DNA of 64,000 nt, taken from the NCBI RefSeq assembly GCF_028752835.1, contig NZ_CP087952.1, forward strand, positions 663,041 through 727,040. The letters are read 5' to 3'. The stretch comes from Desulfosarcina sp. BuS5 (lineage in GTDB: Bacteria > Desulfobacterota > Desulfobacteria > Desulfobacterales > BuS5). The position numbers and the translations under genes were made by a program. The notes beneath the pieces were generated by a model that saw nothing but the letters and a program-made list of their open reading frames with translations, did no database searches and was not told where the DNA came from. The stretch's first letter is position 1. Each line of letters begins with the position of its first letter. Positions 4,171-42,943 of this stretch are shown here, one piece after another.

Positions 4171-4222
4171 AATTGCGTTTTTTTCGGTGAGCAATGATCA
4201 TCAAGAGCAGGGTTACCCCCCC

Positions 4223-5551
4223 CTATTCCTGGCGTATTAAAGATAAAATTTCGGCAGCAGATTCTACATTTTCCAATTCCATAACTCTTTCAATTACCTT
4301 TTTGGCTCTGCCAGGGGAAAGACCGGATGTAATCATGAATTTATCTTTAAGTTCCCCGGCTGTTAAAGGATTATCAGAAGAGCCTTTGGGAGCTGAAGTC
4401 TGCCCTTCATATATTGTACCATCTTTCATGTGTACTTTGACATGGGAACTTAAACATATATTAAAAAATCCATGGGTCGTTATTTTTTTTCTTAAAGCTT
4501 CTATTTCAGGACTGGAGAGCTTTTCTTCCGTAAGATTTTCTGTTGTCACTTTTCCCTCGGCAAGGGATAATGCTGCCAGGAAATAAATACTGAATCTAGC
4601 CTCATGCAGAGTTTCCGGTTTTACTCGACCTGCCGCATCAAGGGGTAAATTATCAATTTGAATTTCAACTTTATCCACATCAGAAATGAAAGGATTATCT
4701 TTTTTCTGGATCTCAACCATGAGATCTATAGTTGAATGGACTCATAACGGAGCAGGATATGTTTTAAAACAGACTTCCGAAAGATAAAATTTTTCTCCCA
4801 AATCCTTTACAATAACTTCATGATCAGGCTTCTCAGCAAACAGATCAAAAAAACCATGCTGACCATCAAAAATATCAGAAGAACTGTCAACGCCTTCCTG
4901 GGCAAATAAACAGGCTGTCAGCCCATCGGAGGCTGCTTTACCAACATGGAAAGCTTTTGACATAGTTCCAAACACATTTCGCAGACCTCCACCGGAAGTG
5001 CCGGCTATTCCAAGAGCATTAACGATTGTAGCCGGGTCAAGATTCAAAAGACTTGCAACCCCGGCAACTGCCCCGAATCGTCCTATGGTAGAGGTGATAT
5101 GCCAGCCTTTGTCATAATGAACACGCCCCACTCCTTTGGCAAGTCGTAAGCTTATATCAATAGCAAGAATAATTGCCTTTAAAAGATCTTTTCCATTTGA
5201 TTGCCGGTATTCAGCAATAGCCATAATCGCGGGCAAACTTGGGGATGTTGTATGTATTAAGGTAGCCATGTGATAATCATCAAAATCCAAGGCATGGGAC
5301 AGCATGCCATTCATAAGGGAAGCATTTTGAAGATTAGCCTTTTCACCGACTCCAATTACGGTAGACTGATCTTTTGTGTCAAAATTGGATAAATATTTTT
5401 TTGAAACGTCTCCGAATTCACTCTTTGACCCTGCAATAGCAACTCCTAACCAGTCAAGAAAACAGAGTTTCCCCATTTCCAACACATCGTCAGGCAACTG
5501 GTCAAATTCTGTTCCAGCTACATATTCTGCAATCTTCTTACCAATATTCAT
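4223..5551 (-). CDS. MmgE/PrpD family protein interrupted by an in-frame TGA (selenoprotein candidate or pseudogene)
   Basis: Read through, this is a 442-residue protein, close to the usual 440-460 of the MmgE/PrpD family (2-methylcitrate dehydratase and relatives). The start at 5551 is chosen because AGGAG lies about 8 nt upstream; an ATG at 5596 is the alternative. The N-terminal helical domain has the typical family stretches DWLGVAIAGS, ALDFDDYH and GGGLRNVFG. Codon 270 (4742-4744) is TGA, directly after CFKTYPAPL and before VHSTIDLMVEI. Both halves are in the same frame, so no frameshift is needed. A perfect hairpin follows at 4709-4726. The residue usually found at this position in the family is aromatic (Y/F/W) rather than Cys, so TGG-to-TGA nonsense is a serious alternative to selenocysteine. 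Confidence 0.6.
4709..4726 (-). promoter_or_regulatory. SECIS-like hairpin 15 nt after the in-frame TGA
   Basis: On the coding strand GATCTCA-TGGT-TGAGATC forms a perfect 7-bp stem with a four-base loop. The stem starts 15 nt and the loop 22 nt after the TGA, and the second loop base is G. Bacterial SECIS models ask for a short stem-loop roughly 16-37 nt from UGA with a G in the first two loop positions, so this fits. It may still be chance, since no conserved sequence defines bacterial SECIS elements. Confidence 0.3.
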
Positions 5552-5569
5552 CTCTTTTCTCCTAATTTC

Positions 5570-5587
5570 GTAACCGTTCACGGTTAC
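5570..5587. promoter_or_regulatory. Palindrome GTAACCGTTCACGGTTAC upstream of the MmgE/PrpD gene
   Basis: An 18-bp near-perfect palindrome ends 19 nt before the chosen start codon at 5551. A second copy with the same core (AACCGTTAACGGTT) lies at 5762-5778. A pair of matching palindromes on the upstream side of one gene is what an operator pair looks like, although duplication of a repeat boundary could give the same picture. Confidence 0.35.
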
Positions 5588-5654
5588 AAGCGGCATAATT
5601 TCCTGTTTATAAATTGAATCTCAGGCCATCAACGTAAGGCGGGACAGCTACTTT

Positions 5655-5743
5655 GGTGGATTCGTCGCTTACGCTCCTTAATCCACCCTACGGTTCAAGA
5701 GCAACGTAAGTTTGTAGGGTGGATTAAGCGAAGCGAATCCACC
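5655..5743. repeat. Inverted repeat of the GGTGGATTCGCTTCGCTTAA type
   Basis: Two arms, GGTGGATTCG...AATCCACCCTAC at 5655-5692 and GTAGGGTGGATTAAGCG...AATCCACC at 5714-5743, face each other around a roughly 20-bp spacer. Sequences of this kind are scattered through many proteobacterial genomes as intergenic palindromes. It separates the two copies of the AACCGTT palindrome upstream of the MmgE/PrpD gene. Confidence 0.6.
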
Positions 5744-5761
5744 GAAACCTGCTGTATTTTT

Positions 5762-5778
5762 CAACCGTTAACGGTTAC
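5762..5778. promoter_or_regulatory. Second copy of the AACCGTTAACGGTT palindrome
   Basis: A perfect 14-bp palindrome (5763-5776) that matches the one at 5570-5587 and shares the adjoining TAATTTC/GAAATTA bases. It lies on the far side of the 5655-5743 repeat. Possible operator, or a duplicated boundary of that repeat. Confidence 0.3.
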
Positions 5779-5880
5779 CTAATTTCTATAGATAAACCTA
5801 TAAAATTCATTTAAATAAATATCTATACAAAACGAACCTTTCATTTATTATGTCAAAAAAACAACGCTGTCAAGATTGCA

Positions 5881-6088
5881 CTAAAACTCCGATATAAGGA
5901 TTTTTAAATAAAGAGGTAGCTTTCAACGCCTACGTTACGAGGGGTTTTAAAGCGCGTACAGGCGCGTAATTGCATAAATAGAGGTGTTTGTATGACTGCG
6001 TGGCTATCAAGTTTACTTAATTAACATATTGATATAATTAGTATTTTATACTATTATCTTTGCTTAAATCCTTATATCGGAGTTTTAG
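5881..6088. mobile_element. 208-bp MITE with perfect 23-bp ends and 8-bp target duplication
   Basis: The element begins CTAAAACTCCGATATAAGG at 5881 and ends with the exact reverse complement at 6066-6088, giving 23-bp perfect terminal repeats. AGATTGCA is present directly before (5873-5880) and after (6089-6096), a clear 8-bp target-site duplication. The 160-bp interior holds no convincing reading frame, so this is a non-autonomous element moved by a transposase encoded elsewhere. I cannot assign the parent IS family from the ends. The remaining gap sequence to 6279 holds nothing I can name. Confidence 0.85.
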
Positions 6089-6317: not shown

Positions 6318-6962
6318 CTACTTACAAGGTATTGGGACTGTAATGAGATATCTCCAGTTTAGTGGAGAATTCGTAAGTCCCATCTGCATTGCCGGTGTAT
6401 TATGGTTATACTTTTTTATAAATTTCTCGTTTTCATTGTTAATTCGTATTCGTAAGCTCTTATGAAATTGTATGTAATTATAGTTGAATAAGTTAATCCA
6501 CATTACATTACTAAAATTCAGCTTGTTCTTGCAATACCCCAGGGTTTTTCTCTGAAGATAGGAGATATGTTGCCTTAGGGTAAGGTTCAGTCTCTCAATA
6601 AATGAGGTGTTTTGGCTTTTTCCGGGGAAATCTTTTACAGTACCTTTTACAAAATATTTTTTAACTGTTACAAGCCGACGCTTTATTCGGCGCTTAACAA
6701 TTTGCAGGTAAGCATAAGGAATTTCAGACATAATGTTTTCGAGCGCATTTTTGTAAGCCGCTAATTTATCTGTAGCGACCTTTAATATATTATCTTTTCC
6801 CCATTTGCCCAACTTTTTAATGCCCTTTACTAAACGGTTTGCAGTGTAAGTTGTTCTTGAACCCAACTCGAAACCGATCCAGAATTTTGTTGTGGATTCA
6901 AGAGCGATAAAAACCCATAATTGTTGACTTTTATTTTTAAGGTAAGACCATAGTTCATCCAT
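6318..6962 (-). CDS. insB: IS1-family transposase, catalytic part (InsB-like)
   Basis: This 214-residue product holds the IS1-type catalytic region: MDELWSYLKNK at the start, DKLAAYKNAL in the middle and the ERLN...R...YCKNKLNFS segment toward the end, as expected for the DDE-like IS1 nuclease that cuts and joins the element ends. It is in the same frame as the InsA-like gene upstream, separated only by one TAA codon; the intervening codons read as KDRRTIEQRQKAIGQK, which looks like normal linker sequence. Translation may therefore start internally here or reach it by stop readthrough. It differs from the second copy by only a few residues, for example Ile versus Ala after LVKG. Confidence 0.8.
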   Translation of the reverse strand: MDELWSYLKNKSQQLWVFIALESTTKFWIGFELGSRTTYTANRLVKGIKKLGKWGKDNILKVATDKLAAYKNALENIMSEIPYAYLQIVKRRIKRRLVTVKKYFVKGTVKDFPGKSQNTSFIERLNLTLRQHISYLQRKTLGYCKNKLNFSNVMWINLFNYNYIQFHKSLRIRINNENEKFIKKYNHNTPAMQMGLTNSPLNWRYLITVPIPCK

Positions 6963-42298: not shown

Positions 42299-42943
42299 AT
42301 GGATGAACTATGGTCTTACCTTAAAAATAAAAGTCAACAATTATGGGTTTTTATCGCTCTTGAATCAACAACAAAATTCTGGATCGGTTTCGAGTTGGGT
42401 TCAAGAACAACTTACACTGCAAACCGTTTAGTAAAGGGCGCTAAAAAGTTGGGCAAATGGGGAAAAGATAATATATTAAAGGTCGCTACAGATAAATTAG
42501 CGGCTTACAAAAATGCGCTCGAAAACATTATGTCTGAGATTCCTTATGCTTACCTGCAAATTGTTAAGCGCCGCATAAAGCGTAGGCTTGTAACAGTTAA
42601 AAAATATTTTGTGAAAGGTACTGTAAAAGATTTCCCCGGAAAAAGCCAAAACACCTCATTTATTGAGAGACTGAACCTTACCCTAAGGCAACATATCTCC
42701 TATCTTCAGAGAAAAACCCTGGGGTATTGCAAGAACAAGCTGAATTTTAGTAATGTAATGTGGATTAACTTATTCAACTATAATTACATACAATTTCATA
42801 AGAGCTTACGAATACGAATTAACAATGAAAACGAGAAATTTATAAAAAAGTATAACCATAATACACCGGCGATGCAGATGGGACTTACGAATTCTCCACT
42901 AAACTGGAGATATCTTATTACAGTCCCAATACCTTGTAAGTAG
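42299..42943 (+). CDS. insB: IS1-family transposase, catalytic part, copy 2
   Basis: A 214-residue product nearly identical to that of copy 1, with MDELWSYLKNK, DKLAAYKNAL and the FIERLNLTLRQHISYLQRKT block of the IS1 catalytic domain. It lies in the same frame as the InsA-like gene upstream with one intervening TAA. Integrity of both copies suggests recent transposition. Confidence 0.8.
   Translation: MDELWSYLKNKSQQLWVFIALESTTKFWIGFELGSRTTYTANRLVKGAKKLGKWGKDNILKVATDKLAAYKNALENIMSEIPYAYLQIVKRRIKRRLVTVKKYFVKGTVKDFPGKSQNTSFIERLNLTLRQHISYLQRKTLGYCKNKLNFSNVMWINLFNYNYIQFHKSLRIRINNENEKFIKKYNHNTPAMQMGLTNSPLNWRYLITVPIPCK

Follow-up and report, generated by a model that had tools for sequence, protein, structure and literature searches.

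The window (the whole 64-kb stretch of DNA that was analyzed) carries on its minus strand a gene of the MmgE/PrpD family whose frame is interrupted by one in-frame TGA (Table 1). When this TGA was read as selenocysteine (Sec), translation from 5551 to 4223 gave 442 residues, with the only TGA at codon 270, and ended at a TAG. Both family domains were recovered from this product in Pfam, MmgE_PrpD_N with 251.5 bits and MmgE_PrpD_C with 90.6 bits, each above its cut-off of 32.1 bits. The start at the ATG at 5551 agrees with homologues, and the frame is homologous on both sides of the UGA, with protein conservation going on after it. A sequence-only reading of this DNA had already pointed to the full-length frame, to the single TGA at 4744–4742 and to a hairpin with a 7-bp stem and a UGGU loop 15 nt further on, and all three were confirmed when the sequence was reread.

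Table 1. Positions of the features of the MmgE/PrpD locus within the window.
Feature	Position	Strand	Basis
MmgE/PrpD-family gene, putative selenoprotein, Sec predicted at residue 270, stop TAG	4223..5551	-	442 aa, homologues
In-frame TGA, codon 270, predicted selenocysteine	4742..4744	-	TGA at same codon in nine genomes
MmgE_PrpD_N domain, residues 6–245, with D91, D92, H100, H151, K199	4817..5536	-	Pfam
MmgE_PrpD_C domain, residues 265–425, predicted Sec near domain start	4277..4759	-	Pfam
Bacterial SECIS-type hairpin, 7-bp stem, UGGU loop, TGA-to-loop 22 nt, -9.1 kcal/mol	4709..4726	-	Published rules, synonymous constraint
AGGAG, likely ribosome-binding site for ATG at 5551	5559..5563	-	Ends 7 nt upstream of ATG

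The gene has no evident operon partner in the window; judged by eye, its flanks carry transposase-like ORFs and a gene resembling a helicase. Two transposase-like ORFs of 214 aa, also named by eye, lie at 6318–6962 (minus strand) and 42299–42943 (plus strand) and show one difference over their first 50 residues. Just upstream of the MmgE/PrpD gene there is a pair of 22-nt repeats (5564–5585 and 5763–5784, 86% complementary, 177 nt between), followed by perfect 23-nt inverted repeats (5881–5903 and 6066–6088, 162 nt between); the inverted repeats of this stretch (5564–6088) could be small mobile elements. TGA is the terminator of nine of the 38 other long ORFs in a mechanically produced ORF list of the window (10 of 39 with the MmgE/PrpD gene included). 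It is therefore not generally reassigned here, and a general reassignment of UGA was rejected.

The hairpin (GATCTCA-TGGT-TGAGATC) is a perfect 7-bp stem with arms at 4726–4720 and 4715–4709 and the loop at 4719–4716, and its stem begins after 15 nt from the TGA. The rules for bacterial SECIS elements, as given in the available part of a 2026 review (PMC13188914), are a loop of 3–9 nt, a stem of 4–16 bp, a G at loop position 1 or 2, a UGA-to-loop distance of 16–37 nt and a minimum free energy of -7.5 kcal/mol or lower. Every one of these is satisfied, with a 4-nt loop that has G as its second base, a 7-bp stem, a distance of 22 nt and -9.1 kcal/mol. Five long TGA-interrupted frames are present in the window (at least 80 codons open before the TGA and at least 60 after), and only the MmgE/PrpD frame has a rule-meeting hairpin. 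An Rfam scan of 4200–5700 returned two chance matches and nothing relevant, the coverage of bacterial SECIS elements by Rfam not being established.

A search of the genome for sel genes, proposed as a check when the TGA was first noticed, identified selA, selB, selD and a tRNA-Sec with the anticodon TCA. An in-frame TGA is also present in selD (context GSGUASK), suggesting that this cell reads UGA as Sec elsewhere too. Among the genomes with a Sec-type MmgE/PrpD gene, selA was present in all seven tested (G797 and G836 were outside this test). Separately, a second selB was observed (G000:C1:1778126–1780191), sharing 36% identity with the first across 514 residues. A tRNA-Sec(TCA) of its own lies on the same strand, approximately 90 bases upstream, and the discriminator base of this tRNA is T, where G73 is usual. 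The two are possibly a separate second Sec-decoding pair, and the accessible portion of PMC5330540 describes a duplicated tRNA-Sec.

Relatives of the gene were sought in genomes by protein or profile at E-values of 1e-80 to 1e-120, except for a search of 58 relatives at 1e-3. The latter gave matches in 24 genomes, two of them with a TGA-bearing match. Searching 389 genomes of the order gave 19 with matches (six TGA-bearing), 389 genomes of the class, of which those listed belong to the same order, gave 16 (six), and 395 genomes of the phylum gave nine (two). For the family of G262, seven of 86 genomes matched (two TGA-bearing), and for the order of G467, four of 85 (three). Given the strict E-values and the sampled groups, TGA-bearing genes that are more remote, or that lie in genomes outside the sample, would have been missed. 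Using this approach, codon 270 was found to be TGA in 10 genes from nine genomes, the genome of the window (G000) included, spanning one phylum, six families and two orders. These genes fall into three forms according to codon 268, which encodes Pro or Cys or is a second TGA, while codon 270 is TGA in 10 of 10. The PxU form (G000, the gene in the window, and G262) reads YPAPLUVHST, the CxU form (G467 and G797) reads YATCAUVHGT and the UxU form (G001, G244, G306, G075 and G836) reads YPTUAUTHS. G001, which is of the same genus as G000, has two UxU copies on contigs C274 and C41; one is partial, being cut by the contig end, and they are 96% alike after the TGA.

The non-Sec homologues examined read YASCGATHS, YASALATHS and similar at this site. 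They were chosen from the matches and do not represent all of them (12 in the hairpin and synonymous tests, 19 in the alignment). A contig search with the protein gave three relatives of 28–31% identity, and no TGA was present in the two of these that were aligned, one of which was included in the 28-row alignment and the tree. The sequence-only reading had described the position of the TGA as usually aromatic, which is not the case among the 19 aligned: 12 have Ala or Gly, two have Phe and five have other residues. Its statement that a Cys usually stands two residues earlier applies to 11 of the 19, and both CxU genes also have Cys there. Of the residues that it had suggested looking for at codon 270, Sec is represented by the TGA of the nine genomes, but Cys and Trp were each found in none of the 19; Cys alternates with TGA at codon 268 only. 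A Cys in homologues where the selenoprotein has UGA is a supporting feature and not a strict requirement; it is lacking for codon 270 but present for codon 268 of the UxU form. Neither outcome that would have spoken against a selenoprotein, a genome without sel genes or an intact Trp or Tyr codon in relatives without a conserved hairpin, occurred, TGA and hairpin being kept together.

The distance from TGA 270 to the loop is 22 nt in all 10 Sec genes, with a UGGU or UGGA loop. When energies included dangling ends, the published rules were met by seven of the 10 compared to none of the 12 non-Sec homologues, the background of rule-meeting hairpins being 492 of 9875 codons (5.0%) in 22 related genes. 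With bare stem energies, four of the 10 reach -7.5 kcal/mol (background 328 of 10223, same 22 genes). The stem is 6 bp long in G244 and in both G001 copies, which miss the energy rule even with dangling ends. Stable folds (-8 to -12.6 kcal/mol) also occur at this stretch in three non-Sec genes, but their form is not that of a SECIS element. In the nine Sec genes compared (the partial G001 copy was excluded from the pair counts, the tree and the synonymous test), two stem pairs have changed on both sides, and 96.8% of cells are paired in register vs. 22–62% when the alignment is slid. The covariation score and the paired cells were reached in three of 500 shuffles, and two of the five covariation measures lie within the shuffles, namely both-side changes (216 of 500) and further pair types (449 of 500).

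The clearest signal at the hairpin came from synonymous differences. Over nine Sec genes with an overall figure of 0.869 per synonymous site, the six-codon window at +5 to +10 after the TGA has only 0.011 (rank 1 of 423) and that at +6 to +11, the hairpin itself, has 0.160 (rank 2 of 423); each of the six lowest windows overlaps the hairpin. These two windows have ranks of 241 and 279 in the 12 non-Sec homologues (0.826 and 0.856). These 12 are the only control for this test, as a three-gene sister set (244 windows) does not contain the hairpin windows. Synonymous change has thus nearly disappeared over the hairpin, indicating a constraint beyond that of the protein, and a SECIS element at that spot explains it.

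Selection on the protein continues past the TGA, with dN/dS values after it of 0.15 (G000–G262), 0.11 (G467–G797), 0.11 (G306–G075) and 0.07 (the two G001 copies), and before it of 0.11, 0.06 and 0.07 for the first three pairs, respectively. Saturation affects several dS values, and ratios of 0.24–0.39 come from deep pairs (0.39 and 0.27 for two deep pairs after the TGA). The gene in the window belongs to a clade with UGA at codon 270 in every member found: the nine Sec rows cluster in a single group of the tree (support 91/88, under the 95/80 mark on one count), present in 89% of 200 bootstrap trees, with three YASC homologues as its sister. A non-Sec paralogue of the YASC type from this sister group was also observed in G000 (C1:3725774–3727009), 44% identical.

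These data bear on the possibility, raised when the TGA was first noticed, that a nonsense mutation or compensating indels have truncated an MmgE/PrpD paralogue and left a pseudogene. The genome does hold four other MmgE/PrpD genes, and the window offers no evident operon and has transposase-like ORFs (named by eye) near the gene. However, the same TGA recurs across six families belonging to two orders (nine genomes), purifying selection acts downstream of it, and the Sec genes form one tree group with a constrained hairpin over which synonymous change is missing. As the conserved TGA and the hairpin constraint are not explained by a nonsense mutation or by compensating indels, we consider a pseudogene exceedingly improbable and this reading in substance already refuted.

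It could also be that the UGA is a true stop, with the N and C domains made as two translationally coupled proteins. The TGA is close to the boundary of the two Pfam domains (residues 245–265), and an in-frame ATG or GTG follows within eight codons in each copy. The place of this start varies, however, being an ATG at the eighth codon in PxU genes (G262 also has a GTG at the first), an ATG at the fifth in UxU genes and a GTG at the first in CxU genes, and no clear ribosome-binding site was seen by eye ahead of these starts. The exchange at codon 268 of TGA in UxU genes with TGT or TGC in CxU genes fits Sec and Cys and not a stop, and the constrained hairpin fits a SECIS element, leaving a split gene very unlikely. 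Readthrough of the UGA as Trp or another amino acid has in its favor that near-cognate readthrough of UGA is a known phenomenon. Against it stand the full Sec machinery, a SECIS-type hairpin at the expected distance, the Cys/UGA exchange at 268 and the absence of Trp at 270 from the 19 non-Sec homologues, and there is scarcely any room for this alternative.

It is thus with high confidence that we propose the gene to encode a full-length MmgE/PrpD selenoenzyme in which UGA 270 is decoded as Sec, in the absence of peptide, selenium-labeling or activity data. The inference of a new selenoprotein made from the sequence alone is supported by the sel machinery, by the TGA and hairpin kept in relatives and by the synonymous constraint. 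The host SelA, SelB, tRNA-Sec and SelD would decode the codon, with the hairpin just downstream directing insertion; that SelB directs it is inferred. The gene resembles other bacterial selenoprotein genes (UGA with a bacterial SECIS element and SelABCD) in its in-frame UGA, rule-meeting hairpin, machinery, Cys/Sec exchange at 268 and conservation after the UGA, but differs in that this MmgE/PrpD group lacks a Cys form at 270.

Such a family does not seem to have been described. MmgE/PrpD (PF03972) is absent from the 119 families and subfamilies in Table 1 of the 2026 review, and its main text does not name PrpD, as far as the available part of that review extends (PMC13188914). The part available of a 2022 review (PMC9312934) has no mention of MmgE. 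An open literature search by title found no selenium-bearing MmgE/PrpD protein, the supplementary tables of PMC8318568 and the annotation in RefSeq being outside its scope; the accessible text of that paper covers further putative selenoproteins of marine Deltaproteobacteria. If correct, this would add a selenoprotein family within a superfamily in which the members of solved structure are lyases and epimerases without cofactors, and the UxU form with two Sec residues would be unusual. It may be inferred that such genes are annotated as truncated MmgE/PrpD fragments or as pseudogenes.

The 442-aa protein satisfies the criteria of the MmgE/PrpD superfamily, with both Pfam domains above the gathering score, the same fold and a conserved active-site Asp/His/His/Lys/Lys set. 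Its AlphaFold2 model (pLDDT 94.4) superimposes at a TM-score of approximately 0.9 on mouse, human and B. subtilis cis-aconitate decarboxylase (ACOD1, bsIRG1) and on iminodisuccinate epimerase. D91, D92, H100, H151, K199 and K263 are identical in 28 of 28 rows of alignment A5. As judged from this alignment and the predicted structure, the protein retains the fold of cis-aconitate decarboxylase and iminodisuccinate epimerase as well as their carboxylate-handling residues. In ACOD1/IRG1 and B. subtilis IRG1 (6R6U, 7BR9, 7BRA; TM 0.86–0.91) the active-site residues align with D91/D92, H100, H151, K199 and K263, although identity is only ~25%. Iminodisuccinate epimerase (2HP0, 2HP3) is the best PDB match by sequence (E 4e-48; by profile E 4e-102), and H100 and Y146 correspond in the alignment to the His and Tyr that are the two bases of its proposed mechanism; it differs in having no selenium and in reading Ser-Cys-Tyr-Ala where the Sec clade has x-[P/C/U]-x-U. 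The superfamily fold is also shared with 2-methylcitrate dehydratase PrpD (TM 0.74–0.83, full-length chains), but scores of 43–67 bits, against NCBIfam cut-offs of 458–950, indicate that the protein is not a PrpD equivalog. No NCBIfam model reached its cut-off for the protein. According to the part available of a paper on cysteine desulfidase (PMC12647591), the solved MmgE/PrpD relatives are cofactor-free, and by inference the protein would be a lyase, isomerase or epimerase that needs no cofactor and has a carboxylic acid as its substrate.

Sec270 is placed by the model at the N-terminus of helix 269–285. In human ACOD1 the residue aligned with 268 is the His of KRFPAHLSTH, which from the alignment we infer to be His277, allowing for a one-residue chain offset, and in B. 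subtilis IRG1 it is C271. The alanine mutant of His277 is inactive, and in docking of bsIRG1 C271 contacts the substrate, together with D91, H102, K200 and K266, as reported in the available portions of PMC11814083 and PMC7347537, respectively. This position is Pro in the protein of the window and Cys or Sec in the sister forms. The essential His277 of human ACOD1 is therefore not matched in the window protein, and bsIRG1 also lacks it. With 268 aligned to a substrate-contacting residue and Sec two residues on at a helix N-terminus, Sec270 is probably beside the substrate pocket in the model, a placement with no distances behind it.

From there the selenolate may act as a low-pKa acid/base or as a nucleophile. 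Most known selenoprotein families are likely redox proteins, to go by the accessible part of the 2026 review (PMC13188914). A non-redox selenoenzyme family, in which the selenolate would serve as acid/base or nucleophile in the elimination, decarboxylation or epimerization of carboxylic acids, with one selenolate in the PxU and CxU forms and two in UxU, is a reasonable possibility that falls short of being probable. Alternatively, in CxU and UxU the selenolate may be paired with residue 268, as Cys/Sec or Sec/Sec; with Pro at 268, such a 268–270 pair is impossible in the protein of the window. It is still possible, if rather doubtful, that Sec lies outside catalysis altogether, as a redox sensor, a trap for metals or electrophiles or a regulatory site, which would be equally compatible with a selenoprotein. 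The window form has no Cys or Sec partner at 268, and the PxU and CxU forms have a Cys at 261, both of which fit such a role, but Sec is two residues from the aligned substrate-contacting position (bsIRG1 C271, ACOD1 His277) and codon 270 is UGA in all clade members found. With such a family, the use of selenium in acid/base or nucleophilic chemistry, and not only in redox reactions, would become testable, and PxU, CxU and UxU are three natural variants at one site, a ready series for work on mechanism.

The surroundings of the gene in three other genomes point to carboxylic-acid catabolism, genes of this kind being absent around the copy in the window. In G262 two parts of a TRAP transporter flank it, dctP on one side and a fused dctQM on the other, and a methylmalonyl-CoA-mutase-type pair (B12 mutase), an acyl-CoA ligase and enoyl-CoA hydratases are found nearby. 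Fumarase subunits, another MmgE/PrpD gene and a DctM-type permease with a binding protein occur within a few kb in G306, and part of a fumarase and another MmgE/PrpD gene are found in G075.
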